From assembly GCF_003063315.1 (NCBI RefSeq), contig NZ_NERV01000002.1:930001-994000 (forward strand): a stretch of 64,000 bases of DNA. Direction: 5' to 3'. Positions 2 to 18,460 of the stretch are shown one piece after another. The translations under genes and the position numbers were made by a program. This stretch comes from Limnohabitans sp. T6-5 (GTDB lineage: Bacteria; Pseudomonadota; Gammaproteobacteria; Burkholderiales; Burkholderiaceae_C). Each line of letters begins with the position of its first letter. Positions within the stretch are counted from its first letter, which is position 1. The notes below the pieces were generated by a model. The model did no database searches and was not told the origin of the DNA. It saw only the letters and a program-made list of their open reading frames with translations.

Positions 2-760
2 ACCGATTGGCTGGCAGCCCTGAAACTCGCCGCCATTGGCAACGTGCTCTATTACCTGTTTCTGGCCAGTGCCATCCAGCGTGCAGGCGGTGCCTTGCCC
101 ACCATGATCATCGGCACCTTGCCTGTGGTGATTGCGGTATGTGCCAACCTGCTGAACCATCAGCGAGACGGACGTTTTCCCTGGCTCCAACTTCTGCCCT
201 CACTCGGACTGATTTTGCTGGGCATTGCTTGCGTCAACCATGTCGAATGGGCGGCTCTGCGCCAGAACCCAGACGCGGACACTGCACGTTACTTCACAGG
301 GGCCATGCTGGCGGTTGGTGCCCTGGCCTGCTGGACCTGGTATCCGCTGAAAAATGCCGACTGGCTGCGCGGACACACCGATCGAAACCCACGTGTTTGG
401 GCCACAGCACAAGGCTTGGCCACCTTGCCTTTGGCCCTGTTGGGCTATGCCGGATTCTGGGGGTGGGCCTGGATAACCCAAGACCCGTTGCCCATGCCAC
501 TGGGCCCCAGGCCCTGGAACTTTGTGGGCCTCATGATGGCCATAGGTCTGCTGGCTTCGTGGCTGGGTACGCTGTGCTGGAATGCCGCCAGCCAGCGCCT
601 GCCCACAGCGCTGGCCGGGCAATTGATCGTGTTTGAAACCTTGGCCGCCCTGGCTTACGCATTTTTACTGCGGGCGCAATGGCCAGAACCCCTCACCTTG
701 ACAGGCATTGCATTGCTGATTCTGGGTGTACTGAGGGGCGTGCGGATCAAACCCTTGTAA
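2..760 (+). CDS. DMT-family (EamA-like) transporter, 5' end missing
   Basis: The reading frame is open from base 2, so the start lies before the window and only about 250 C-terminal residues are seen. The protein is a run of hydrophobic segments separated by short loops, as expected for the second half of a 10-helix drug/metabolite transporter, with a typical short basic tail after the last helix (GVRIKPL). It is probably an inner-membrane exporter. The substrate cannot be read from the sequence. Confidence 0.7.
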   Translation, partial: TDWLAALKLAAIGNVLYYLFLASAIQRAGGALPTMIIGTLPVVIAVCANLLNHQRDGRFPWLQLLPSLGLILLGIACVNHVEWAALRQNPDADTARYFTGAMLAVGALACWTWYPLKNADWLRGHTDRNPRVWATAQGLATLPLALLGYAGFWGWAWITQDPLPMPLGPRPWNFVGLMMAIGLLASWLGTLCWNAASQRLPTALAGQLIVFETLAALAYAFLLRAQWPEPLTLTGIALLILGVLRGVRIKPL

Positions 761-3559: not shown

Positions 3560-3590
3560 ATTTCTGAAGGCCGTCCACGGCCCAGCTCCC

Positions 3591-3880
3591 TCAATACACC
3601 GGCTGGTGCTGTTTGAGGCTGGAAATGACTTCTGGTGTCAATGAAAACCCCACCCCCATACAACGCCGCCAATTCAGCAAACGCATTGGCAAATGCATCG
3701 ACGCCCTGGCCAGAGATGAACGGGAGCGCACCGCCCGTCCAAGCCGGAAAACCAATGCCGAAGATTGAGCGGATGTTGCTGTCGTGTACCGATGTCAACA
3801 CGCCTTGTTGCAGGTAGCGGGCGGACTCCACCGCTTGGCGTTACAGCAAGCGGTCCTTGATGTCTTGCAAGCCGAGCCGA
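3591..3880 (-). pseudogene. Decayed copy of the 3' end of fadJ
   Basis: About 290 bases align with the end of the intact fadJ-type gene at 16301-16590, in the same orientation and with roughly three quarters of bases matching by eye. The conserved block GVLTSVHD, SIFGIGFPAWTGGAL is readable in both. The relic carries one extra C near 3651-3656 that breaks the frame, and a TAA where the intact gene has TAC (LLY to LL-stop). No other part of fadJ is present. It marks the left edge of the defence island and is probably the displaced end of the ancestral gene or a donor fragment. Confidence 0.85.
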
Positions 3881-3897: not shown

Positions 3898-4311
3898 TTA
3901 CTTCTTGGCGGGTGCATCTTCCACCCCATTCGCCTTGGCAAAAGTAAAGATCACTTCCCGAATGATCTTGCGCTGCGGCGCAGGAAGCTGCAAAAAGGCG
4001 TCAAAAGTTTCGCGCTCCAAATAACCCACACCCTCGTCCCAGCGTTTTTGACGCTGTTCAATGGACTTGCGCACGGCACTACCAAAGCGCAGGACTTCTG
4101 GCTCCACGTTGAGCGAGGAAGCCAACACCAGCAACTTGTCCTGCGCCGGGATGGATTCCCCCTTCAGCCACCGGGACACCGCCTGGAACGTCACAGACCG
4201 GCCCCAGTAGTTGGTATTGAACAAATTCAACAAAACCGCTGGACGCGGCTCCAGTCCTGCGGACCGCATGGCGGCCTGCAAGCGCTCTGAGAATTCCAGC
4301 TTTTGATCCAT
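3898..4311 (-). CDS. XRE-like helix-turn-helix regulator of the island
   Basis: A 137-residue protein with an N-terminal helix-turn-helix region (residues about 15-65; TFQAVSRWLKGESIPAQDKL is the recognition-helix part) and a basic, helical C-terminal half. It is divergent from the methyltransferase gene at 4431, and the 119-base gap between them holds an inverted-repeat operator. Such small regulators beside restriction-modification genes commonly act as controller proteins that delay or limit nuclease expression; that role here is inferred from position. No strong ribosome site precedes the ATG at 4311. Confidence 0.75.
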   Translation of the reverse strand: MDQKLEFSERLQAAMRSAGLEPRPAVLLNLFNTNYWGRSVTFQAVSRWLKGESIPAQDKLLVLASSLNVEPEVLRFGSAVRKSIEQRQKRWDEGVGYLERETFDAFLQLPAPQRKIIREVIFTFAKANGVEDAPAKK

Positions 4312-4430: not shown

Positions 4431-6608
4431 ATGCCGAAGTCCCTCCTCGAACAACTCCCTGAAATCGTGGCCAACGGCCGTAAACAAGCCGAAAAAATCC
4501 TGGAGGGCATCGAAAGTCGTCACCGCGTGGGCCTGCAAACCCGTGAGGTCGTGCTGCCTGCACGCGACACCAAGGCACAGGACTGGATCGCCCAACAAAA
4601 CCGGGCCAGCCAGCGCGAAGTGTTTGCACCGGGGCAAGCCAGCTTGCTAGACAACCCGCAAGCCACGCTGGGCGCTGTGCCCGAAGTGCCTTGGGCCAAC
4701 CGACTGATTTATGGCGACAACCTGTTGGCCATGGCAGCCTTGCTGGCGGGGGACGACAACACGCCGAGCCTGCGCGGCAAAGTCGATTTGATTTACATCG
4801 ACCCGCCGTTCGACTCCAAGGCCGACTACCGCACGAAGGTCACTTTGCCGGGGGTGGAAATCGAACAAAAGCCCACCGTCATCGAGCAGTTCGCCTATTC
4901 AGACACTTGGAGCGACGGCACTGCGTCTTACCTGGCCATGATCACGCCGCGCTTGATCTTGATGCGTGAACTGTTGGCCGATACTGGCTCCATATACGTG
5001 CATCTGGATTGGCATGTGGGGCATTACGTGAAGCTGGTTTTGGATGAGGTGTTTGGGAAAGACCAATTAATTAATCAGTTGATCTGGAAGCGCGGCCATG
5101 CGCACAGTGATTCAAAGCAAGGTTCAGCGCACTTTGGTCGCTTGCACGACATGATATTTTTCTATTCAAAGTCGGAACAATATTTTTTTACACAGCAGTT
5201 CACTCCCTATACCCAAGAATACAAAGACACGTATTACAAAAGCATCGAACCAGAATCAGGTCGGAGATACTGGCTTGACAATTTACAAGGCCCTGGTGGC
5301 GCGACAAAAGGCAACCCCTATTACGAAGTAATGGGGGTCTATCGCTATTGGCGGTACAGCAAAGAAAAAATGGATCAGCTGATCAAGGATGGCCGAGTGA
5401 TCCAGACAAAGCCTGGAACTGTTCCAAAGTACAAGCGCTATTTAGACGAGATGCCCGGTAAACCAACACAAGACATATGGGATGACCTTAAAAGCTTAGG
5501 CGGCTTGGGCGCTAACGTTGCGGAGAGGATCGATTACGACACACAAAAACCCGAAAGTCTTTTGGAGCGTATTGTTCGTTCTTCTTGCCCTGAAAATGGC
5601 ATCGTCGCTGACTTCAACGGTGGCTCCGGCACCACAGCCGCAGTCGCAGAGAAACTTGGCCGCCGTTGGATCATCACAGACATTGGCAAACCCGCCTGCA
5701 TGATCATGCGCAAACGCCTGATCGACCAAGAGGCCAAGCCCTTCCTCTACCAAGCCATCGGCGACTACCAAGTCGAAGCTGCCAAAGCACATTTGGGCCG
5801 CGATTTCCGCATTGGCGATTTGTCGCAGATCGTGTTGTCGCTCTACGGAGCCCTGCCATTGCCTCCGGATGTGAACCCACAGCGCAACCTTGGACAAATC
5901 GCAGGAATGGCACTCGGAGCAGGCCGTGGCAGCAAAACCCTTGTGTTGGCCGATTCGCCCAACAAACTCACCGGTATGGCCACGCTCAAGAAGGCAGTCG
6001 CCCAGCGCGACAACCTGATGGGCGGCTGGGACCGTGTGGTGGTGCTGGGCTGGAACTTTGAGCCGTCGATTGGCGAAACCATCACGGCGCTCAACGACAG
6101 CCGACTGGAAGTGCTGGTTATTCCACCCGACCTGATGGACCGACTCAAGAAAAAAGGTGGCATCGACAAGCTGCGCGGGCAAGTGCGGTTCTCGTCACTT
6201 CAATACCTGACCATCGAGCCAATCACGCGCCAGGTGTCAGCCAGTGCAGGCGATGCACCCCCGACCGAAACACTCACGGTGAAGCTCAAAAACTATGTGC
6301 TGCTCTCGCCCGAAGCGATCAACCTGGACGACGCCAACCGCCAAGCCTTGCAGCAAGTAGCCAACAAAGAGCCGCTGGCCCTGATCGAGTATTGGGCGGT
6401 GGACCCGGACTATGACGGCAAGGTGTTCCGCTCAGTCTGGCAAGACTACCGGGGTAACACCGCCAACGATGCCGATGTGCTGCGTGTGGTCACGCAGGGG
6501 CAAGTGACCGTGCCGGTAAAGAGAGGGCCACGCAAGGTGTGCGTGCGCGTGGTCGATGTGTTTGGCTTTGAAGCCGAAGTAGTGGCCACTGTGGAGGCCG
6601 CGTCGTAA
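4431..6608 (+). CDS. Type III-like DNA methyltransferase (Mod)
   Basis: A 725-residue amino-methyltransferase, predicted to methylate adenine at a specific site using S-adenosylmethionine. The catalytic motif IDPPF is at residues 123-127 and comes before the cofactor motif FNGGSGTT (near residue 388), the order of beta-class enzymes such as type III Mod subunits. YGDNLLAM near residue 94 is also typical. Residues about 205-385, between the two motifs, should hold the target recognition domain; this segment is visibly more AT-rich than its flanks. The C-terminal 300 residues would contact the Res subunit. First gene of the mod-GTPase-res group; 112 bases separate it from the GTPase gene. Confidence 0.85.
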   Translation: MPKSLLEQLPEIVANGRKQAEKILEGIESRHRVGLQTREVVLPARDTKAQDWIAQQNRASQREVFAPGQASLLDNPQATLGAVPEVPWANRLIYGDNLLAMAALLAGDDNTPSLRGKVDLIYIDPPFDSKADYRTKVTLPGVEIEQKPTVIEQFAYSDTWSDGTASYLAMITPRLILMRELLADTGSIYVHLDWHVGHYVKLVLDEVFGKDQLINQLIWKRGHAHSDSKQGSAHFGRLHDMIFFYSKSEQYFFTQQFTPYTQEYKDTYYKSIEPESGRRYWLDNLQGPGGATKGNPYYEVMGVYRYWRYSKEKMDQLIKDGRVIQTKPGTVPKYKRYLDEMPGKPTQDIWDDLKSLGGLGANVAERIDYDTQKPESLLERIVRSSCPENGIVADFNGGSGTTAAVAEKLGRRWIITDIGKPACMIMRKRLIDQEAKPFLYQAIGDYQVEAAKAHLGRDFRIGDLSQIVLSLYGALPLPPDVNPQRNLGQIAGMALGAGRGSKTLVLADSPNKLTGMATLKKAVAQRDNLMGGWDRVVVLGWNFEPSIGETITALNDSRLEVLVIPPDLMDRLKKKGGIDKLRGQVRFSSLQYLTIEPITRQVSASAGDAPPTETLTVKLKNYVLLSPEAINLDDANRQALQQVANKEPLALIEYWAVDPDYDGKVFRSVWQDYRGNTANDADVLRVVTQGQVTVPVKRGPRKVCVRVVDVFGFEAEVVATVEAAS

Positions 6609-6720: not shown

Positions 6721-9564
6721 ATGAAAGCACCTAAACAGCTTCGACGTGACATTCAAGACCTGTCTTCGCATTTGCAACAAGTACAGGGTGGATTGCAAAG
6801 TCGAGCAACGATCAAAGTGGCCAACATTGGCAAGGAATGTCTGCGCAGTGCCAATGCACTGAAGCAATTGTTGGAAAGCCAACAAGTACCCGGCGAGTTC
6901 AAGGTCGCTGTGGTGGGCCGATTCAAGGCGGGCAAGTCGTCTTTCGTCAACGAGTTGCTGAACAACCGACTGGCCAGCGAGGGTACATTGCCAGAGACTG
7001 CGGCAGTGACCACGTTCAAGCACGGTTCAAACGTGAGGGCCAACATCAGGTTTGTGGACCAGACAAGGTGGCATGAACTCAAAAAACTACACACCGATGA
7101 CCCTAAACATCTTGATGTTCATCGGGTACGCAGCTGGGTGAGTTTTTCTATTCCCAAGAAAAACAAGGAAGGTGAGCCAGATACGGTTTTTGATCTACAA
7201 GGGCTAGAGAGGGAACACGTACGAGAGGGTGGCCACACTGTGACGCTGGAGCTGCCAGCGCAATCGACCAAAAAAGCCACTACTGATTTTCGGCGCAAGC
7301 TCAAGGAGTACACCACTGCAAGCAGCCCGCTGCATTGCCTTGTGGACAGCATCGACATCACTGCCCCAGCAGAGATACTGGATCAAGGCGTACTGTTGAT
7401 TGACACGCCCGGCCTGGACGATACGGAGCGATTCCGAGTGACCCTGACTGAAAGGGTTGTCGCGGATGTGGATGCGGTGCTGTTTTTGACCAAATCTGGC
7501 GCTTCCTATGGTCAGTCCGAAAAAGACTTCCTGCTCTCTTTGTTGCGCAAAGGCACTGTCAAGCAATTGATTGTGGTGGTGACGCAAATTGACGAAACCT
7601 ACAACAAAGTACTTGCGGAAGCCGAGGACAACGACGAAGACCCTGAATCGATTGCCGACTGCATCGCACGTGAACGAATCAAGATTTCACGGGAAATTTC
7701 CGAAACGCTGAAAGACTTGGAACAAGACGGCAGCCTACACCGCTACCAGGAGCAATTGGGCGAAGTGCCAATTGCTTTCACATCCGCACGCCTGCACCGG
7801 GATTGGAAAGAAAAAAAGAATTTGCCGTTTGTAATTACCCCATCAGACCCGGGTGGCGTAGATCAATTGAAAGCAGATCTTCTGAAACTGTTGTCCACAG
7901 AATCACGCTTGGCACAGACTGCCGAAAATATCATCAAAGGTGCCAGTCATCAGCTGTTGGAATTGCAGTCCGTACTTCAAAACAAACTGCAATCGCTTCA
8001 GATCACCCAGAACAAGGAGGTGGCTGAACAAAAGCTAAAGACCTTTCACGGTGAATTTGGGGAGGCTCGCAAAGGGTTTGCCCGGACTGTTGAGCAACAA
8101 ATCCAGCTCATGACAGAGCGTTTGAGCGAGCAACCCCAGCGCGATGAAGTCTTACTGAGCCTGATTACAGCCTTGGCCGAGCAGCCTCTTTCGGCCATTG
8201 AATCTGACGACATGGGACGTCATTGGAAAACTCGACGATACGGTGGTTGGGGGCATTTGTCTGGCTTGCAGGGTGCCACCGCAAGTCTCATTTTCCCTAG
8301 AGTGCAACAGTTGCTGGATACCCGGACAGCTCTTTTCTCGAACTATGCTCAGCGATTTGAAGAAGCACTTTTGCGTCTGTCCAAAAACAGCGAAGAAATA
8401 TCTGAGCGTCTGGAGCTGGGAACCAATGTGCCTTTGGACGTTTCAGGCAAGTTGAAAGGGGTGCTGGAGCGCTCCATGCAAAACGCCCAGGAAATGATCG
8501 CGATTGAAGAGCGCAAAGTGCAGCAACTGCTGGATGATTTCGTGACTGACAGCGTAGCCGACCGAATTTCTGAGAAGCGTAGGTTAGTGGCGGACATCTG
8601 GGAAACCGGCACGACCGTTCGCCAAAACGAGCAAATCAAATCTTTCTACCGCGAAGTCAAGTCGCTATTGACCGACGCGCTGCAAAGCTATTTGAAAGAA
8701 AGCAGTCACCGCTTCGGTGAATTTTTGCTGGCCGAAGCAAAGGCAGCACCACGCGATGCCCTGGACAGTGTCGATGTATTGCTGGAACAAGCGGCAGACA
8801 ACATTTTGGCAGCAGCCACCTTGCATCTGACCGGTCAAACGGAAGAAGCCACCGCTGCAATTACAGGCATCAACAATGAGCTGCTTGGGACCTTAGAAAG
8901 ATTCCGAACCGTCATGCCAAAGAGTCCAACACTTGTCGTGGAATCCACAAAGTCAGCACAGCACAGCGCGAATACACCTATTGCCACGACAAACAAGGCT
9001 GCATCTGATTTATTCGTTATGTACGAAAGCGCAGATTGGGCCAATGAGGTACAGACGACCGCAACGGTGTGCATCAGTCGTTTGCAGTTGCAAGAAGGTT
9101 CGATCGGTTGGTCGTACGAAAAACTCTTTGAATCTCGGTTCTTGCAGGGTGCATTACAGCTGTCTTTGATTGACCCTCATCTGTCAAAGGCAAACCAACT
9201 GCGCAACGTGCAAGAGTTCCTCATGCATGTGGCAGAAGCCGCCAAACCCAAAGCCATTGAGATCGTCACGTCCCATCTTGACGGCGAAATGATCGCCCAG
9301 CAAAACCGTGTTTTGGACGAAGTGGCCAAGGACTTGTTTCAGCAGTTTGGTGTGGCGCTGACACTGCGACGAGAAAACGGTCTGCATGACCGGTACTTGC
9401 GACTGAACCATGGCGTGCTGTTCAAACTGGGGCGTGGTCTGGATGTCTACAAACCAGCAACAGGTTTGGCCGCTCACCGCCCAGCAAGCCGACATGTACG
9501 GGCGACAGAAATCGATGTATTCGTGGTACCCGGCCACACACTGACTGCCTCTGACGCATCATGA
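6721..9564 (+). CDS. Large dynamin-like GTPase
   Basis: A 947-residue protein. G1 is GRFKAGKS (residues 66-73), G3 is DTPGLDD (near 227), and a G4-like VVTQID follows near 285. After the GTPase domain comes a long, mostly helical region rich in Gln, Glu and Leu, as in bacterial dynamin-like proteins that bind or remodel membranes. No clear transmembrane helix was found by eye. The gene overlaps res by 4 bases (ATGA), so the two are probably translationally coupled. A GTPase between Mod and Res is not part of the classical type III layout; an effector or membrane-sensing role in defence is inference. Confidence 0.8.
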   Translation: MKAPKQLRRDIQDLSSHLQQVQGGLQSRATIKVANIGKECLRSANALKQLLESQQVPGEFKVAVVGRFKAGKSSFVNELLNNRLASEGTLPETAAVTTFKHGSNVRANIRFVDQTRWHELKKLHTDDPKHLDVHRVRSWVSFSIPKKNKEGEPDTVFDLQGLEREHVREGGHTVTLELPAQSTKKATTDFRRKLKEYTTASSPLHCLVDSIDITAPAEILDQGVLLIDTPGLDDTERFRVTLTERVVADVDAVLFLTKSGASYGQSEKDFLLSLLRKGTVKQLIVVVTQIDETYNKVLAEAEDNDEDPESIADCIARERIKISREISETLKDLEQDGSLHRYQEQLGEVPIAFTSARLHRDWKEKKNLPFVITPSDPGGVDQLKADLLKLLSTESRLAQTAENIIKGASHQLLELQSVLQNKLQSLQITQNKEVAEQKLKTFHGEFGEARKGFARTVEQQIQLMTERLSEQPQRDEVLLSLITALAEQPLSAIESDDMGRHWKTRRYGGWGHLSGLQGATASLIFPRVQQLLDTRTALFSNYAQRFEEALLRLSKNSEEISERLELGTNVPLDVSGKLKGVLERSMQNAQEMIAIEERKVQQLLDDFVTDSVADRISEKRRLVADIWETGTTVRQNEQIKSFYREVKSLLTDALQSYLKESSHRFGEFLLAEAKAAPRDALDSVDVLLEQAADNILAAATLHLTGQTEEATAAITGINNELLGTLERFRTVMPKSPTLVVESTKSAQHSANTPIATTNKAASDLFVMYESADWANEVQTTATVCISRLQLQEGSIGWSYEKLFESRFLQGALQLSLIDPHLSKANQLRNVQEFLMHVAEAAKPKAIEIVTSHLDGEMIAQQNRVLDEVAKDLFQQFGVALTLRRENGLHDRYLRLNHGVLFKLGRGLDVYKPATGLAAHRPASRHVRATEIDVFVVPGHTLTASDAS

Positions 9565-12518
9565 AATCAGATTCAGATCAACTGGCCTTGGCCGCAGGCC
9601 TGACCGCCAAAACGAATCAGCTCTGCCTAGGCCTAGAATCGGGTGCAGCGGACATTCTAGAACTGGTCACCCCCACCACGGCCGACCTGCTGGCTTGGTG
9701 GTTTGGCGAAGACATGGTGATGGCCCGGGGTGGTTTGAACTTCCATGCCGGACAACAGCAGGCCATATTGAACGCCATCGTGGCGCACGAGGTGCTGGGC
9801 GCTGACCTTGAGCGCTGGACGCTGCTGGACCTGTACCGCGCCGCCGCACCCGATGCGCTGCTGACAGGCACGCGCTTGAACGAAGTGTCGGCCGACAAAC
9901 ACGGCCACCCCAAGTACTGCCTGAAGATGGCCACGGGCACGGGCAAGACCTGGGTGCTGCAAGCGCTGATGATCTGGCAATTGCTCAACAAAACCGCCGC
10001 ACTGGCTGATGGCATGGACGACCCGCGATTTACCCGTCAGTTCATGGTGGTGGCACCAGGCCTGATTGTTTATGAGCGTTTGCTCGATGCGTTTTGCGGC
10101 AAGTTGGTCGCTGGTGGCAACGGCTCGCGTGACTTTGCCAGTTCCGACATGGCCAAGTTTGCCGACCTGTTCATCCCCGAGGCGCACCGCGAATCGGTGT
10201 TTGCCTTTGTGAGGGGCAACGTCTGCAGCAAGAACGAGATCGGATTGAAAGCCACTGGCAACGGCATGATCGCCATCACCAACTGGCACCTGCTGGCCGA
10301 AGGCGATGTGACGGAAGACATTGAAGAAGTCGAAACACTGGGCGCACCGCTGGACCCGCAAGACGTGGTGGCCCAGGTGCTGCCGCTGACACCCGGACGC
10401 GCCACGGGCAACAGCCTGGACGTGCTGGACCGCCGCTATGCACGCGGCAATGTGCTGGAGTTTTTGGCGCAACTACCCGAGCTGATGGTGTTCAACGACG
10501 AGGCACACCACATCCACGAGTTCAAGCGTGAAGGCGAGACCACTGAGGTGGAATGGCAAAAAAGCCTGAGCCGCATCGCCCAGACCAAGGGCCGCCGCTT
10601 TGTGCAGGTGGACTTTTCGGCCACGCCCTACAACGATGTGGGCTCGGGCAAGATCAAGCGCAAGGTGTTCTTTCCGCACATCGTGACCGACTTTGACCTG
10701 AAGAGCGCCATGCGCGCCGGGCTGGTCAAGTCGCTGGTGCTGGACCGCCGCAAGGAAATCGGCGCATTGCCGCTGGAGTTCAAGGCCGAGCGCGATGAAT
10801 CGGGCAACCCGGCTCTAAGCGAAGGCCAGCGCGTGATGCTGAGGGCAGGCTTGGCCAAGCTACGCAAACTCGAAAAAGACTTTGCCGCCATTGATCCGCA
10901 CCGCCACCCTAAGATGCTGGTGGTCTGTGAAGACACCACCGTGTCACCGCTGGTGGCCGAGTTCTTGCGCGACCAGGAAGGTCTGAGCGAAGACGAGGTG
11001 ATGACCATCGACTCGGGCAAAAAGGCCGAGCTGGGCGAAAAAGACTGGGCCCCTGTGCGCGAACGCCTGTTTAGCGTGGACCACCACGCCACACCGCGTG
11101 TGATCGTGAGCGTGTTGATGCTGCGCGAAGGCTTTGACGTGAACAACATCTGCGTCATCGTGCCCCTGCGCTCCAGCCAGGCGCAAATTCTGCTGGAGCA
11201 AACCATTGGGCGTGGCCTGCGCCTGATGTGGCGCGACGCCGAATACAACGATATCAAACGCGAAAACCGCGAACTGATCGAGGCCAGCAAAGAACCCGGC
11301 AGCTTGCTCGATGTGCTGTCAATCGTGGAACACCCGGCGTTTCAGTCTTTCTATGATGAACTGATCAACGAAGGCTTGGCGGGCACCACAGGCGATGACG
11401 ACGGGGACGGCAGCTCGGCCACGGGTGACGTGATCGCCGCTGAATTGCGCGAAGACTTTGAAGCCTTTGACTTCGGTATCCCGTTCATCCTGCAAGAAGC
11501 CGACGAACTGCGCGACCACAACCAGATCGACGTAACTGCCCTGCCAGCCTTCACGGCCATGGCGGCGGACCAGCTCAAGGGCATGCTGGGCAAGGGCGAC
11601 ACCTTTGTCTCGCAAGACCTGCAAAGCGCCACGCTGTTTGGCGACTACCGGGTGGACGGTGCGGTGATGAACGTGAGCGGCTACAACGATTACCTATCGC
11701 GCCTGACGCGGCGCATCAGCCAGGCGTTGAGCGAGCCACTGCCCAAAGGCAACAAGATCGCCACGCACCTGGCCAAGCCCTATCTGCAAGTGAACACCGC
11801 CGAGCTGACCGGCTGGATTGACGACTACGTCTGGACGCAACTGTTTGCTGGCACCTTCAACCCGCTGGAAGATGAAAACTGGCGCTTGCTGCTGTTGCAG
11901 CCCGTGGTGGACCACATCACCAAAGTGTTTGCCGTCGGCCTGCTCGAATCGGAAGAAAAGCACACAACAGGCCAAACCGAGGTGCATCTGCGGCATTTGA
12001 GCGAAGTACCCAAGCTCATGGTGCGCGAGAGTGCGTCGCTGGAAGTGTCCAAATGCATCTACACCCGGCTGGGCTGGCCCAGCCGCAACGGCGGGCTGGA
12101 GCGCGCCTTCATCCACTGGGCGCAAGCCGACACGCAAGTGCTGGCGTTTTGCAAGATCAGCGAAAACCGCCACACCTTTGCCCGCCTGCGCTACGTGAAA
12201 GACGACGGCCTGCCCGCCTTCTACTCACCCGACTTTCTGGTGCGCACCGCGGGTGCGGTGTACCTGGTCGAAACCAAAGGCCAGGAACAAACCATTCACC
12301 CCAACGTGCAGCGCAAACTCAAAGCCGCGCTGGCGTGGTGTGAACGCATCAACAACCTGAGCGAAGAACAACGCGGCGGTCCGCCCTGGCACTACGTGCT
12401 GCTGGGCGAGGGTGTTGTGTATGAGTGGCAGGGCAAAGGTGCAAGGCTGGCGGAGCTGCTGGACTATGCAAGGCTGCGGCCGCTGGGTGAGGCTTCGCTG
12501 CAGCAGCGGTTGATTTGA
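9561..12518 (+). CDS. Type III-like restriction subunit (Res): helicase plus nuclease
   Basis: A 985-residue superfamily 2 translocase/nuclease. Visible motifs: Walker A ATGTGKT (124-130), DEAH box (313-316, in FNDEAHH), motif III FSATPY, and motif VI QTIGRGLR near residue 550. Near the C-terminus SPDFLVRTAGAVYLVETKG supplies the D...ExK residues of a PD-(D/E)XK nuclease (about 889-906). Length and domain order agree with type III Res subunits, which need Mod to recognise DNA and use ATP to cleave between unmethylated sites. Coupled to the upstream GTPase gene by a 4-base overlap; its stop lies 116 bases from the convergent PRTase gene. Confidence 0.85.
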   Translation: MKSDSDQLALAAGLTAKTNQLCLGLESGAADILELVTPTTADLLAWWFGEDMVMARGGLNFHAGQQQAILNAIVAHEVLGADLERWTLLDLYRAAAPDALLTGTRLNEVSADKHGHPKYCLKMATGTGKTWVLQALMIWQLLNKTAALADGMDDPRFTRQFMVVAPGLIVYERLLDAFCGKLVAGGNGSRDFASSDMAKFADLFIPEAHRESVFAFVRGNVCSKNEIGLKATGNGMIAITNWHLLAEGDVTEDIEEVETLGAPLDPQDVVAQVLPLTPGRATGNSLDVLDRRYARGNVLEFLAQLPELMVFNDEAHHIHEFKREGETTEVEWQKSLSRIAQTKGRRFVQVDFSATPYNDVGSGKIKRKVFFPHIVTDFDLKSAMRAGLVKSLVLDRRKEIGALPLEFKAERDESGNPALSEGQRVMLRAGLAKLRKLEKDFAAIDPHRHPKMLVVCEDTTVSPLVAEFLRDQEGLSEDEVMTIDSGKKAELGEKDWAPVRERLFSVDHHATPRVIVSVLMLREGFDVNNICVIVPLRSSQAQILLEQTIGRGLRLMWRDAEYNDIKRENRELIEASKEPGSLLDVLSIVEHPAFQSFYDELINEGLAGTTGDDDGDGSSATGDVIAAELREDFEAFDFGIPFILQEADELRDHNQIDVTALPAFTAMAADQLKGMLGKGDTFVSQDLQSATLFGDYRVDGAVMNVSGYNDYLSRLTRRISQALSEPLPKGNKIATHLAKPYLQVNTAELTGWIDDYVWTQLFAGTFNPLEDENWRLLLLQPVVDHITKVFAVGLLESEEKHTTGQTEVHLRHLSEVPKLMVRESASLEVSKCIYTRLGWPSRNGGLERAFIHWAQADTQVLAFCKISENRHTFARLRYVKDDGLPAFYSPDFLVRTAGAVYLVETKGQEQTIHPNVQRKLKAALAWCERINNLSEEQRGGPPWHYVLLGEGVVYEWQGKGARLAELLDYARLRPLGEASLQQRLI

Positions 12519-12634: not shown

Positions 12635-14854
12635 CTAGCCAGTCGCCAATTTTGGCTCGATTGCTGCTTTGACGAACCCCAAGCCCTTTAGGCTTTCCTC
12701 GCTTACCCCGTAGGCCCTCAAGACCTCCCAGGCTGAACCAATGTCGTGTAAAGTTCCCAGCTTTCCAGCAAGCAGTGCGATGGCGAGCTCAATTTGGTAA
12801 GCCCCTGCACCAGCGTGAGTATTGGGGTCGCGGAGCACGCGTGCTAGAAAAGCAATCATGCTGGTCGAAACCTCATCAGGCTTGAGCGCGCGCAGTATCG
12901 AGCAAGCGATGAGTGGCTCCGTATAAGCGTTTTCAAAAACGAAACCATCCATGCGAGTGGGGTTCGTTAACGAATGGGGATCCAGAGGGTCCACGACAGC
13001 TGTTCTACGTTGCTGTACAGCACTTGCCGTGGCAATCAAAACCTGAAGTTGGGTGGAGCCCTCATCCCCAGCTACGGAGCCAGCCGCCAAAGGCGGACAT
13101 TGATGCCCTGCGGGAGCTGGCGCGATGCAGTGCATCGCGCCAAGATCCTCCTTGGTGCTCAGCACCCCTTTTCTGAGGGTAAGCTGACTGTCAAAGCTAT
13201 CACTCTTTTCCGCTAGCGTAGTCAACCACTGCTGCTCTTTGCACCATGGGCATTCATCATTCTTGTGCCAAGTTGGCAACGGAATCCAGTAAAGTTGATG
13301 CCAAGTCGCTGTCCACGCGTGTCGAGTGGTCAGTCCCTTGCGAATTGAGCTTAATTCAACCTCCGATGGGGTGGTCACGATCGGCGCGAAGAAGTGCACA
13401 TGGGCGAGCTTCTTCCAGAGTGTCTCCCGCGTTCTTCGTAGCTCAGAATTTAGGTCTCTCATAGTCTGCCCAGAGATCACCTTGTCGTCGAAGACCAGGA
13501 CCACCGGGTTCTTAGACACCTCTAACTTCGCGCTATCTAACTCACCTACCTCCATGACTGGGATGTCTCGCCACGCTGCTATGGTCGCACGCAGCAGCCT
13601 ACTGGCCTTGTGACTGGGGATGAGGACCCAATCGGGCTTGGGATTCAGCGAGTCCAGTTTACTGTGGACTTCAGCGGAGAACCCACCATGTGTGAGCAGT
13701 TTAGTTACGTCGATACCGTACGCATGGTGGCGTGGGAACGCCTCATTGGCTTCGTCAAAATGAACTCTAAGTGCTCCCTCGACAACGCCATATGTATCGA
13801 GAAATGGGCGCTGAAGGACAAAGTAGTTCTCTGGCAGTTTGATATCTTTGTCATCCGCAAGGCTGACAAAAAAAGAGTTGCTTTGGATCTTGATGGGTTT
13901 TCGTCGGTCCGGGCCACACATGCTACAGCTCGCAGCGTCAGCTGAGTGCACATACCCATCCAAAGGCAAATGAGCAAGCGGCTTCAGCCCGTCAGGAATG
14001 TCGACAGCCGAGAACGCCAGACAAAAATCTAACTCGACCTCTTTGTCGCCAGCAAGCTCCTTAAGAATTTTCGCCAACTTACCTGTTGAGGCAATGCCAA
14101 TCACCGCGGTAACCGGACCAACAACTCCTTCTAAGAGTCGAGAAGCAGCTGCACGTAAAGCGGACTCATTTGGGTAGCCATTCAGCGCGAGAACGTTACG
14201 ATTTCCGCCGTAGACGAGATTGACGTGCGTTCCTAGCAAAAGCATGCTTGGGTGATCAACTAGGATCGTGCGGTCTGGCGGACTCTCGTCGTCCTCCAAA
14301 TTTGCCATCAACGAGACCGCTATCCAATAGGCAGTGCGCTGGACTGAATCAATGCAATCGAACGACTCTGAGAGTCTGATGAAGTGAGAGGCGTGCGCTT
14401 GTGAAGGGAGTTCAAAATGCGCACCGGCTGGGGCTCGAACAATGCTGCGTGCCAAGCCATCCCTGACAGCTGCGCACATGGCCTGCTCTATCAAGTCGTC
14501 TAATTCGACCTTCGCCAGCGGCTCAAAAACATGCGCTTGATCATTCTCGTAGCTAATGCGGACTGGCTTTAAGCGACCAACCGTCAAGGGGTGTGCATCT
14601 CGGCCAGATAGCCAAGAGGGATTAGGTGCAAAGTAAAGCACCTTGTTGGGAACACGCTCACGCGCTTGCTTACGTGCGACGACTACTTCGTCGGCCAAAG
14701 GAAGATCCTCAGTGGACACGTGAACCCATTGAGGGCCGTCGACATAAATCAGAATGCTGTCGCACTCATGTAGTTCGCGCTCATTCAATGCAGTCAGTAA
14801 GGTCTCAAGGTCATTGAGATCCGACAGGACATCCGTATATACAAAGGTCTTCAT
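12635..14854 (-). CDS. Double phosphoribosyltransferase-like protein
   Basis: A 739-residue protein I do not recognise as a named family. Residues about 140-300 resemble an orotate-PRTase-type domain (FELPSQAHASHFIRL, then AVIGIASTGKLAKILKELA). Residues about 405-500 look like a second PRTase fold, with WVLIPSHKASRLL and the PRPP-loop-like VLVFDDKVISGQTM (452-465). Two CxxC pairs, CSMC (310-313) and CPWC (535-538), suggest zinc binding. The start at 14854 overlaps the ATPase stop as ATGA, which shows coupling; the longer open frame upstream is the overlap with that gene. The reaction, if any, is unknown; a nucleotide-derived signal or effector role in defence is inference. Confidence 0.6.
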   Translation of the reverse strand: MKTFVYTDVLSDLNDLETLLTALNERELHECDSILIYVDGPQWVHVSTEDLPLADEVVVARKQARERVPNKVLYFAPNPSWLSGRDAHPLTVGRLKPVRISYENDQAHVFEPLAKVELDDLIEQAMCAAVRDGLARSIVRAPAGAHFELPSQAHASHFIRLSESFDCIDSVQRTAYWIAVSLMANLEDDESPPDRTILVDHPSMLLLGTHVNLVYGGNRNVLALNGYPNESALRAAASRLLEGVVGPVTAVIGIASTGKLAKILKELAGDKEVELDFCLAFSAVDIPDGLKPLAHLPLDGYVHSADAASCSMCGPDRRKPIKIQSNSFFVSLADDKDIKLPENYFVLQRPFLDTYGVVEGALRVHFDEANEAFPRHHAYGIDVTKLLTHGGFSAEVHSKLDSLNPKPDWVLIPSHKASRLLRATIAAWRDIPVMEVGELDSAKLEVSKNPVVLVFDDKVISGQTMRDLNSELRRTRETLWKKLAHVHFFAPIVTTPSEVELSSIRKGLTTRHAWTATWHQLYWIPLPTWHKNDECPWCKEQQWLTTLAEKSDSFDSQLTLRKGVLSTKEDLGAMHCIAPAPAGHQCPPLAAGSVAGDEGSTQLQVLIATASAVQQRRTAVVDPLDPHSLTNPTRMDGFVFENAYTEPLIACSILRALKPDEVSTSMIAFLARVLRDPNTHAGAGAYQIELAIALLAGKLGTLHDIGSAWEVLRAYGVSEESLKGLGFVKAAIEPKLATG

Positions 14855-16002
14855 GCGACTGGCAGAAGGTTCTTTCGGTCGAAGAGCTCGCGCTGATCCA
14901 GCCCAGACTCGAACTCTGGCACCCAGATCGAAACCACAGTTCCACACCCTTTTGTTGAAGGGTCCTCAACGATGGCAGCTACATCTAGTTGTGGATACTC
15001 GCTATCTTCCAACGAGAAATCTTGAACGAAGTGCACACCGGAGGAATGAATTTCGATACGAGCACGCATCCGGTGAGCTGCCGACAATGCATTTGATAGC
15101 CCACGACCCCGTTTGATATCACCCTTAGGCTTTCGTGTGACGTCCGCAGTGAATGCTCTTGCGAAGCGTTGAATCGGAGTCTCATTGGGCGTGTCAGGCG
15201 GCAGGGTGTGCTGGATGCCGTCACCTTGGTCGGCCACAGTCATGCACACGAGACCCAAGCCCAATTTCCCGCCAGCAGCTTCTGAGCTGCGCGCAATGTA
15301 CTTCTGCATTTCCTCAGACAGCGAATTGTGCTTGGTAGTGCTCTTGATGACCACCTTGTCCATCATCAGTGCACGCACTCCCTGCCGCGCAACGCTGTTT
15401 GTGCTAAGGGTCGACTGGCCATGTTCTTGGGAGTTGACGAAGCACTCAAAGACGAATGACGTAAGGTCAGAGACCGTTGACGAATTCAAAAAATAGTGAA
15501 ACCCAAGAAGCTGAGCCATGGACGAGAGCAATTGGTGAAAGCCGCTTCGGTCCAACGGAAAGTCTCTGTCCTCATGGCGAGCATAGGCTCTGAGTTTTGG
15601 AGGCAGACTGTGTCCAGGATCTACGCAGACTAGGGAACAGTTTTGCCCCATTCCCAAAAGCCCACCCCGCTCGCGATAGAAACGAGCGAGGTTCCCTCCC
15701 AGCTTATCTGACGCGGGGTTATGGCTAGGTCCAAAGGTAATCTGCTTTGCATGTCTGATGAGCGATATGCCAAATGCCCCACTTAGCAAGGTCGTCTCGA
15801 ATTCATTTGAAGTCTCGGGTTCAGCAAAGGAGCATTGCACCTCAAGCTCGCCTTTAACGTGGCTCGCAAGCTTGGCCAACGCAAGTCCATGCGCGCCTGG
15901 TTCAAAACTTGAACCTCGGGTTAATCGAACCCCCCGGATAGCAGACATGTCCCATGCACGTACCTCGTCAACCGTACATTTTTCAGATATGAATATGTTC
16001 AT
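14851..16002 (-). CDS. GHKL/HATPase-type ATPase, partner of the PRTase-like protein
   Basis: A 383-residue protein with a C-terminal ATPase of the Hsp90/histidine-kinase/MutL fold. From the ATG at 16002 the N-box is FECFVNSQEHG (about 185-195), the G1 box VADQGDGI (256-263), the G2 box RGRGLSNAL (298-306) and the last strand GTVVSIWVP. The N-terminal 170 residues match nothing I know and could be a sensor. There is no phospho-acceptor His motif or membrane segment, so it is not an ordinary sensor kinase. A GTG at 16050 is an alternative start. First gene of a two-gene operon. Confidence 0.7.
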   Translation of the reverse strand: MNIFISEKCTVDEVRAWDMSAIRGVRLTRGSSFEPGAHGLALAKLASHVKGELEVQCSFAEPETSNEFETTLLSGAFGISLIRHAKQITFGPSHNPASDKLGGNLARFYRERGGLLGMGQNCSLVCVDPGHSLPPKLRAYARHEDRDFPLDRSGFHQLLSSMAQLLGFHYFLNSSTVSDLTSFVFECFVNSQEHGQSTLSTNSVARQGVRALMMDKVVIKSTTKHNSLSEEMQKYIARSSEAAGGKLGLGLVCMTVADQGDGIQHTLPPDTPNETPIQRFARAFTADVTRKPKGDIKRGRGLSNALSAAHRMRARIEIHSSGVHFVQDFSLEDSEYPQLDVAAIVEDPSTKGCGTVVSIWVPEFESGLDQRELFDRKNLLPVA

Positions 16003-16274: not shown

Positions 16275-16300
16275 CGTGCACGCCTTCTCAGGCTTGAGGC

Positions 16301-18460
16301 TCAATACACCGGCTGGTGCTGCTTCAAGCTGTCAATCACTTCTGCCGTCAGCACAAACCCCGCGCCATACTTCGCGGCCAGTTCAGCACACCGTTTGGCA
16401 AACGCATCCACACCCTGGCCGTAGATGAATTGCAGCGCCCCACCCGTCCAAGCCGGAAAGCCGATGCCGAAGATCGAGCCGATGTTGCCATCGTGCACCG
16501 AGGTCAGCACGCCTTCTTGCAGGCAGCGGGCGGTTTCCACGGCTTGGCGGTACAGCAGGCGGTCTTTGATGTCTTGCTGGTTGTAGGCCACGTCGGCTTT
16601 TTCAAAGCGGGTTTTGAGTTCAGGCCACAGCACTTTTTTCTGGCCAGCGGGGTAGTCGTAAAAACCACCGCCTGCGGCGCGACCGGGGCGCTTGAGTTCT
16701 TTGACCATGCGCTCAACCAGCAGTTCGCCGGGTGTGGCGGTGTGGGTTTTGCCTTCTTTGGCAAAGTCTTCACGGGTTTGGTCCAGCACATGCACCGACA
16801 GCGACAGCGCCGTTTCGTCCAGCACGGCCAGCGGCCCCACGGGCATGCCCACTTGCATGGCCAGGTTTTCGATCACGGGGGCGGGGATGCCCTCGCCCAA
16901 CATGGCCGCGCCTTCCATCACAAAGGTGCCGAAGGTGCGGCTGGTGTAAAAGCCGCGCGAGTCGTTCACCACGATGGGCAGCTTGCCCAGCGCCTGCACG
17001 TAGTCATATGCACGGGCGATGGTTTCGTCATCGGTCTGCGCACCACGAATGATCTCCACCAACTGCATCTTGTCCACGGGGCTGAAGAAGTGGATGCCCA
17101 CGAATTTCTCGGGCTTGGCGCTGGCAGTGGCCAAGCCGCTGATGGGCAAGGTCGAGGTGTTGCTGGCAAAGAAACCGCCTTCGGCCAACATGGGCTCGGC
17201 CTCTTGCGTGACGCGGGCTTTGAGTTCGCGGTTTTCAAACACGGCTTCGATGATCAGGTCGCAACCTTTGAGGTCTGCGGCGCTGGCGGTGGGCTGGATG
17301 AGTGACAACAGGGCCGCTTGTTTGTCAGCCGCCATGCGGCCTTTGTCCACGCGCTTTTGCGTGAGCTTGTGGCTGTAGGCCTTGCCTTTTTCAGCGGCTT
17401 CAACGCTCACGTCTTTGAGCACCGTGGCGATGCCCCGGCTCGCTTGTGAATACGCGATGCCCGAGCCCATCATGCCCGCACCCAAGATGCCCACTTTTTG
17501 GGGCTTGTAGCGCGGTGCAGCCTTGGGGCGGCTTTGGCCGCCCTTGATGCTGTTCATGTTGAAGAAGAAGGTGTTGATCATGTTGCGCGCCACCTGGCTG
17601 GTCATGAGGCCAGCGAGGTAACGGCTTTCGATGCGCATGGCGGTGTCAAAGTCCACCATCGCGCCTTCCACCATGGCGGCCAGCGCCGCTTCGGGGGCGG
17701 GGTAGAGGCCACGCGTTTTTTGTTTGAGCACTGCAGGGGCCACGCTCAGCATGCCCGCGATCTTGGGGTTGCTCGGCGTACCGCCAGGCATTTTGTAGTC
17801 CTTGCGGTCCCACAGGTGTTGGGCGGCTTCGGGCTGACCTTGGGCTGCCGCAATGTGCGCCAAAGCGCGGGGGCGCAGCTCGTCATCACTGGCCACGATC
17901 TCGTGCACCAAGCCCAACTTTTGCGCCTCTTCGGGGCCAAAGAGTTTGCTTTCCAGCACATAGGGCTGCGCGGCCAGCAGGCCCAGTTGCCGCGTCATCT
18001 TGGTGATACCACCACCGCCAGGAATCAAACCCAGCGTGACTTCGGGCAAGCCAAATTGTGTTTTGGGGTTGGCGGTGGCGATGCGGTGGTGGCCGATCAA
18101 AGCCACTTCCCAGCCGCCGCCCAGCGCCGTACCGTTGAGGCAGCTGACCACCGGCACGCCCAGCGTCTCGATGGTGCGGAAAGCTTTCTTGATGCCTTCG
18201 ATCTCGGCAAAGACACGCGGGCCGTCCGAGGCTTGCGAGCGCATCACACCTTTCAGGTCGGCCCCTGCAAAGAAGGTGGACTTGGCCGAGGCCAAGATGA
18301 CCCCTTTTAAAGATGCCTTGTCTTTGGCCACCTGCTCGGCCGCCTGTGTCAGGTCGGCCTGCCATTGCAGGCACATGGTGTTGACCGGCGAGCCTTGCTC
18401 GTCAAAGGTGATGGTGGCGATGCCGTCCGCCAGTTCGTAGCGCAGTGTTTTCAAAATCAT
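16301..18460 (-). CDS. fadJ: 3-hydroxyacyl-CoA dehydrogenase / enoyl-CoA hydratase, FadJ/FadB type
   Basis: A 719-residue two-domain beta-oxidation enzyme. The N-terminal crotonase fold has FFAGADLKG near residue 66 and GGWEVALIGHHRIA near residue 115. The central NAD-binding domain begins with VGILGAGMMGSGIA near residue 320, with the HFFSPVDKMQLVEII dehydrogenase motif after it. It hydrates enoyl-CoA and oxidises 3-hydroxyacyl-CoA in the cytosol. The start at 18460 follows GGGGAGA; an upstream in-frame start adds an unrelated stretch. The thiolase gene ends 16 bases upstream, giving a thiolase-fadJ operon. The last 290 bases are duplicated at 3591-3880. Confidence 0.9.
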   Translation of the reverse strand: MILKTLRYELADGIATITFDEQGSPVNTMCLQWQADLTQAAEQVAKDKASLKGVILASAKSTFFAGADLKGVMRSQASDGPRVFAEIEGIKKAFRTIETLGVPVVSCLNGTALGGGWEVALIGHHRIATANPKTQFGLPEVTLGLIPGGGGITKMTRQLGLLAAQPYVLESKLFGPEEAQKLGLVHEIVASDDELRPRALAHIAAAQGQPEAAQHLWDRKDYKMPGGTPSNPKIAGMLSVAPAVLKQKTRGLYPAPEAALAAMVEGAMVDFDTAMRIESRYLAGLMTSQVARNMINTFFFNMNSIKGGQSRPKAAPRYKPQKVGILGAGMMGSGIAYSQASRGIATVLKDVSVEAAEKGKAYSHKLTQKRVDKGRMAADKQAALLSLIQPTASAADLKGCDLIIEAVFENRELKARVTQEAEPMLAEGGFFASNTSTLPISGLATASAKPEKFVGIHFFSPVDKMQLVEIIRGAQTDDETIARAYDYVQALGKLPIVVNDSRGFYTSRTFGTFVMEGAAMLGEGIPAPVIENLAMQVGMPVGPLAVLDETALSLSVHVLDQTREDFAKEGKTHTATPGELLVERMVKELKRPGRAAGGGFYDYPAGQKKVLWPELKTRFEKADVAYNQQDIKDRLLYRQAVETARCLQEGVLTSVHDGNIGSIFGIGFPAWTGGALQFIYGQGVDAFAKRCAELAAKYGAGFVLTAEVIDSLKQHQPVY

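Follow-up and report, generated by a model that had tools for sequence, protein, structure and literature searches.

What is the biological function of a two-gene operon that joins a GHKL ATPase to a protein with two predicted phosphoribosyltransferase (PRTase) folds? The operon is located at 12635..16002 of a 64,000-nucleotide stretch of the Limnohabitans sp. T6-5 genome (the window) and consists of an upstream gene, A, and a downstream gene, B, both on the minus strand. Gene A (14851..16002, ATG at 16002) encodes a GHKL (HATPase) protein of 383 residues, and gene B (12635..14854, ATG at 14854) encodes a protein of 739 residues. The stop codon of A and the start codon of B overlap by four bases in an ATGA (14851..14854, minus strand), and a sequence check verified this overlap and the coordinates of both genes as given in an earlier note on this DNA. 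The earlier note had proposed an undescribed defence system in which a sensor ATPase is coupled to nucleotide chemistry. Comparison with relatives indicates that the A/B pair probably plays a role in anti-phage defence. As judged from the sequences, the ATP switch of A is the constant feature of the family, and chemistry on phosphoribosyl pyrophosphate (PRPP), if it occurs at all, would be confined to the window's own branch.

In a search of 5.8 billion proteins, at least 36 relatives of B (7997 best word-sharing candidates scored) and at least 44 relatives of A were found among the matches listed, and this conservation makes a chance open reading frame untenable. A distant B protein of an uncultured gammaproteobacterium (P0083) gave at least 38 proteins among the matches listed, P0083 included. 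The automatic open reading frame of B is longer and starts from an upstream GTG; the first methionine of the 739-residue version is invariant in alignments A1 and A6. Relatives with genomic context were obtained from alignment A3 (four genome loci and one viral contig), plasmid searches and genome searches, and tblastn against plasmids added ten further records with 22-26% identity. We excluded a second pHG1 record, L004, L005 and L011 (the same place as L006), a partial match in genome G1146, a decayed remnant in genome G249 and four partial plasmid matches. The intact pair is thus represented by 22 loci (the window, plasmid pHG1 as L002, L006-L010, L071-L080 and L088-L092). In 22 of 22 loci, A directly precedes B on the same strand, with an extra small open reading frame between them in L075, and the gene preceding B carries GHKL motifs.

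Gene A encodes an N-terminal part (residues ~1-118) and a SpoIIAB/RsbW-like ATP-binding domain (~119-366) with a predicted Bergerat-type fold. The ATP-binding domain contains the N box FVFECFVNSQEHG, the G1 motif DQGDGI, the G2 motif GRGL and the last-strand motif GTVVSIWVPE, all of which the earlier note had recognized. Across the 66 A proteins aligned, the ATP-binding motifs prove to be practically invariant. Residues N190, D258, G260 and G262 are kept in 66 of 66 proteins, G299 and G301 in all 65 that have a letter there (one gap), E186 in 65 of 66 and H194 in 63 of 66. The Pfam HATPase_c model matches A below its curated cut-off (E 0.0018, 19.2 bits against 26.4). At E values up to 1, Pfam provides nothing else for A, including no phosphoacceptor histidine domain of a sensor histidine kinase, and NCBIfam contains no family for A. 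A and B are devoid of an obvious membrane helix because neither has a strongly hydrophobic 19-residue stretch (maximum hydropathy 0.99 and 1.48, respectively). The earlier description of A as an ATPase with neither a kinase histidine nor a membrane part is thereby upheld. A STAS domain suspected by eye at the N-terminus of A gave no profile signal against 15 STAS domains and was dropped. SpoIIAB and RsbW proteins use ATP as a conformational timer. A differs from these anti-sigma ATPases in that it has the extra N-terminal part of ~118 residues and is encoded next to B rather than next to a sigma factor gene. By analogy, A may use ATP as a conformational timer that holds or releases B.

The B protein consists of an N-terminal alpha/beta part (residues 1-112), PRTase fold 1 (~119-315), PRTase fold 2 (~349-532) and a mostly helical C-terminal part (~536-739) modelled with low confidence. 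The predicted structure supports both PRTase folds, so that the structure prediction for which the earlier note had called favours its assignment of two PRTase-like domains over the outcome that would have contradicted it. Fold 2 carries DDKVISGQT within the PRPP-loop-like motif VLVFDDKVISGQT (B residues 452-464, codons at 13463..13501, minus strand), and two CxxC pairs are present at C310/C313 and C535/C538; the motif and both pairs are as described earlier. The fold predicted for the two domains is shared with orotate and adenine phosphoribosyltransferases, from which B differs in having two copies per chain and extra N- and C-terminal parts. No family was found for B in Pfam and NCBIfam at E values up to 1, and sequence searches of the Protein Data Bank with single proteins and with alignments A1, A2 and A3 gave nothing of value. 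An orotate-PRTase-like FxLxSG segment spotted by eye at B 146-165 was unaligned in the profile comparison and was not used as evidence.

Which parts of B are shared by the family? Conservation was scored over 94 B proteins in addition to the 66 A proteins. Almost all of the B proteins retain F158 and D200 in fold 1, G462 and R473 in fold 2, and R617, R655 and E661 in the C-terminal part. Given that the four residues of the two folds are kept nearly family-wide, the pockets of B would be expected to bind 5'-phosphorylated nucleotides or PRPP. The acidic pair D456/D457 of fold 2 shows a different distribution. It is DD in 35 of the 35 clade-1 B proteins with letters at these positions (37 in total, two gapped) and is also present in pHG1 and L092, and it occurs in 0 of 41 second-clade proteins and in 1 of the 15 proteins of the wide set, which is L092. 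Thus, the acidic pair is missing from 55 of 56 B proteins of the other groups. An acidic PRPP pair in fold 1 was absent from the 23 proteins inspected. The CxxC pairs are complete in clade 1 (37/37 and 34/34 of the proteins with letters there). Of the 15 wide-set proteins, 8 have the first pair, and cysteine is outside the six commonest residues at positions 535 and 538. A single zinc site built from both CxxC pairs was considered and dropped because the pairs do not co-occur in the wide set.

In a midpoint-rooted FastTree tree of 86 B proteins, from which eight fragments were removed, the DD-bearing window, pHG1 and L092 proteins constitute one group with a support of 1.0. Profiles of the window clade and of the distant proteins align over nearly their full length for both B (632 columns, probability 99.8, E 1e-27) and A (357 columns, probability 99.2, E 1.3e-19).

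The distribution of the acidic pair bears directly on an alternative in which B acts as an enzyme toxin that uses up PRPP. In this scenario, phosphoribosyl transfer by fold 2 would deplete PRPP or a nucleobase, with A restraining B until infection. The window's branch keeps the full VLVFDDKVISGQT motif, with DD in all 35 clade-1 proteins that have letters there, in pHG1 and in L092. Moreover, PRTases have been named as probable retron effectors, and one is paired with DprA in an anti-phage system that was put to the test (PMC9122126, PMC12548924). However, the pair is DD in none of the 41 second-clade proteins and in one of the 15 wide-set proteins, despite the same A motifs and the same gene order. 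PRPP toxicity is therefore unlikely as a shared mechanism and could apply only to the window's branch, where we regard it as rather unlikely. More generally, the absence of the acidic pair from 55 of the 56 other-group proteins makes PRPP chemistry improbable as the common mechanism, and the expectation that this pair is the key to how the system works found no support.

PRTases have been connected with bacterial immunity elsewhere. A DprA/PRTase pair protects against T7 and lambda and PRTase proteins are named probable retron effectors (PMC9122126), type III retrons have PRTase effectors (PMC12548924), PRTases are proposed as signal makers in Ter systems (PMC7824862), and PRTase is named in the legend of a DefensePredictor figure on validated systems (PMC13092281). 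The DprA plus PRTase (ShosTA-like) systems and the PRTase/WH effectors of type III retrons resemble A/B in combining a PRTase-fold protein with a regulator (PMC9122126, PMC12548924). The partner is DprA or a retron in those systems and a GHKL ATPase here: a GHKL gene, not dprA, precedes B in the 22 loci, and a single one of the 19 B proteins gave a weak ShosT match (E 0.044). Among the literature matches listed, which did not extend to preprints, we recognized no paper on a GHKL/PRTase pair, and the name PDC-M65 occurred in none of the papers searched.

PDC-M65 is a two-gene candidate in PADLOC-DB 2.0 (models PDLC04764 for M65A and PDLC04765 for M65B; the description field is empty) and has the same two-gene make-up as A/B. 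When 19 chosen A and 19 chosen B proteins were compared with these models at E values up to 0.1, M65A was matched by 16 of the A proteins (best 4.3e-126) and M65B by 18 of the B proteins (best 5.5e-261). The family thus already carries a candidate name, since distant relatives match PDC-M65A and PDC-M65B, and the earlier word 'undescribed' has to be corrected. The window B protein is one of these 18, its own match covering 51 residues (E 0.027, 10.7 bits), and the window A protein did not match M65A at E values up to 1. The near full-length profile alignments given above (E 1e-27 for B, 1.3e-19 for A) nevertheless tie the window clade to the relatives that these models recognize. In contrast to PDC-M65, the window's pair forms a branch of its own, together with pHG1 and L092, and has retained the acidic pair of the PRPP loop as well as the two CxxC pairs. 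On this sequence comparison, the window's pair is a divergent sister lineage of PDC-M65 and not a member that the models can call.

The neighbours of the pair point to defence. Genes named for restriction, AVAST, Qat or TIR defence are found at 8 of the 22 loci (the window, L002, L006, L007, L009, L072, L077 and L091), which supports the association of the homologues with defence. On pHG1, avs1abc lies upstream of the pair; on pBJ86, the next genes downstream are two genes followed by qatCD; in L007, two TIR genes lie ~7.7 kb away; and on Rhizobium NZLR1 p3 (L077), four TIR genes, dgt and a ThiF/multiubiquitin group are near the pair. In L010, an IMG/VR contig, baseplate and tail genes precede the pair and HicA follows it. 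L088 is near a TraG/TraD gene, L089 is ~6 kb from an integrase, and L092 has a PIN protein nearby. The homologues thus occur on plasmids and in a phage contig, near conjugation genes and in restriction operons, and not mainly beside metabolic genes, as expected for the defence role that was first suggested.

The pair lies inside or directly behind a type I restriction operon in 3 of the 22 loci. L006 has the gene order hsdM-hsdS-A-B, and the N-terminus of HsdR starts 24 bases after B (from 12206). This HsdR frame stops near the contig end after ~50 residues, 48 of which are 65% identical to the HsdR of L009; an AbiE pair is located upstream. In L009 (Aliikangiella), the pair is preceded by hsdM, hsdS, a gene with a weak SMC-like match, fic and, at a distance of 36 bases, hsdR; downstream of the pair are HEPN/nucleotidyltransferase and FRG genes. 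In L091, hsdR lies 54 bases before A-B, and a NERD/UvrD protein is encoded one gene further downstream. The three loci do not cluster on the B tree. The PrrC/EcoprrI anticodon nuclease is an NTP-using guard gene within a type I restriction operon and responds to a thymidine nucleotide. The placement of A/B can be likened to that of PrrC, although neither A nor B matched a nuclease family. By this analogy, repeated entry into type I restriction operons suggests guard or second-line behaviour. Does the pair instead modulate restriction, either by controlling the endonuclease or by shielding it against anti-restriction proteins, without being an independent defence? Such a role would suit the position between hsdS and hsdR in L006, the positions directly behind hsdR in L009 and L091, and the type III res gene that adjoins the pair in the window. 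However, at the other 19 of 22 loci the pair was not seen as part of a restriction operon, and it is convergent with res in the window. We therefore consider a restriction modulator decidedly unlikely.

A second feature of the neighbourhoods concerns nucleotides. The thyX gene is directly upstream of A-B on Agrobacterium pQ15_94_1, Rhizobium NZLR1 p3 and R. brockwellii plasmids; the coordinates are L073 6838-10196, L077 6487-9896 and L078 6433-9887. This order in three rhizobial plasmids strengthens the suspected link to nucleotide chemistry. The same order, together with dgt adjoining one pair, could also mark an operon for nucleotide salvage or regulation with no role in conflict. Against this, the pair was missing from almost all genomes surveyed. 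Within the family, the window profile detected the pair in the window's own genome alone (1 of 399; five same-genus genomes were listed as lacking it), and within the class in 2 of 369 genomes. The second-clade profile also gave 2 of 369 in the class, one of them a remnant, and 1 of 40 in the order of that genome, and the wide profile gave 7 of 378 genomes of the phylum, with the own genome and one partial match counted. Furthermore, the pair resides on a phage contig, plasmids and islands, and no common metabolic neighbour was seen outside the thyX clade in the stretches read. A salvage operon is thus highly improbable. Pattern scans yielded no additional loci: of 81 stretches found in genome contigs with alignment A1, and of 41 (A2) and 89 (A1) found in viral contigs, none was confirmed, and phage records searched with three B proteins gave no match. 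The remnant in G249 (L050, ~9640-9990) is a decayed C-terminal piece of a B gene amid housekeeping genes, a sign of loss.

Plasmids carry 11 of the 22 loci (pHG1 and the ten tblastn records), and toxin-antitoxin-type genes are near some pairs (AbiE in L006, HicA in L010, the PIN protein in L092). These observations would fit a toxin-antitoxin-like module for plasmid or island maintenance with incidental anti-phage effects. On the other hand, A and B are both large and stay together in 22 of 22 loci, and such a module fits poorly to chromosomal copies within type I restriction operons, leaving this explanation quite improbable. As a weak control for context, an 18-kb segment lying approximately opposite the pair was taken in 7 of 11 plasmids (CP074351, CP038639, CP081849 and CP066764 were excluded). 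Defence labels (restriction, AVAST, Qat, TIR) occurred in 0 of 7 opposite stretches and in 3 of 7 stretches around the pair (~18 kb each; 25.9 kb for pHG1). The numbers are small and the plasmid gene tables incomplete, and we do not put the difference forward as significant.

In the window, the pair sits in an island beside a restriction system, as had been stated earlier. The left flank is a partial copy of the fadB 3' end (3590..3868, minus strand) with 79-83% identity to the intact copy, and the right flank is the intact fadB 3' end (16300..16577, minus strand). The two are diverged direct repeats, 12.7 kb apart, with identical first 22 bases. Between them are a type III modification methyltransferase gene (mod; 4431..6608, plus strand), a dynamin-like GTPase gene (6721..9564, plus strand), the type III restriction gene (res; 9561..12518, plus strand), which is convergent with B at a distance of 116 bases, and then B and A. 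Nine relatives were compared at fadB. The gene at window 2-760 lies ~0.6 kb after fadB in L054 and 1.2 kb after it in L053, both from the same genus, compared with 15.5 kb here; in the other seven, nothing past fadB on that side resembled the window. No integrase was noticed among the open reading frames between the repeats, where no search was aimed at integrases. The island has two other features. The dynamin-like gene between mod and res (Dynamin_N E 5.1e-21; C-terminal part matching MIT_C at E 1.1e-23 and the BrxL C-terminus at E 6.7e-21) is a second candidate embedded in restriction genes. At the left edge, 3898-4311 encodes a 137-residue protein that weakly resembles phage repressors (DicA E 0.02, RstR E 0.057).

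How might the pair act? We propose that A and B together register a phage-driven shift of the nucleotide pool and then shut down the infected cell. Nucleotide sensing gated by A with an abortive output has, in our judgement, somewhat less than an even chance of being correct. B would read a nucleotide rather than, as a rule, transfer phosphoribose, given the constant ATP switch and phosphate-binding-type turns, the variable acidic pair and the occurrence of thyX and dgt near the pair in one clade. The output would be exerted through the conserved C-terminal part of B or, in the window's branch, through PRPP-dependent chemistry; the well-conserved C-terminal block is the first candidate place for a cell-stopping activity. 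The placement in restriction operons suggests that the pair would act as a second line, either when restriction fails or while restriction works. In its most specific and still doubtful form, this proposal makes the pair a guard module. Its two PRTase-fold pockets would read the (deoxy)nucleotide or PRPP state, A would time the response, and the cassette would serve as a back-up suicide line in type I restriction operons, islands and phages, with the window's branch as a PRPP-reading or PRPP-spending version missed by current defence models.

Several observations weigh against this interpretation. No named defence gene was seen in 14 of the 22 stretches, in which not every neighbour was scanned; these include both Pantoea plasmids, L076 and L079. 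On the B tree, the thyX linkage is restricted to one clade of three close relatives. The structure model of B is moderate (pLDDT 74, pTM 0.53) and poor in the C-terminal part. Support from sequence profiles is weak for fold 2 (53% with alignment A4, 3-8% with A1 alone) and absent for fold 1. Since no effector activity was identified, the abortive output is conjecture from analogy.

The present analysis provides anatomy and a testable mechanism for a defence candidate for which our searches otherwise turned up no more than two library models, and the window's pair reveals a branch that the PDC-M65 models nearly miss. If the pair senses the nucleotide pool, its placement between hsdS and hsdR would parallel that of PrrC as a guard within a restriction operon, and PRTase folds would join the immune domains that read metabolite state.

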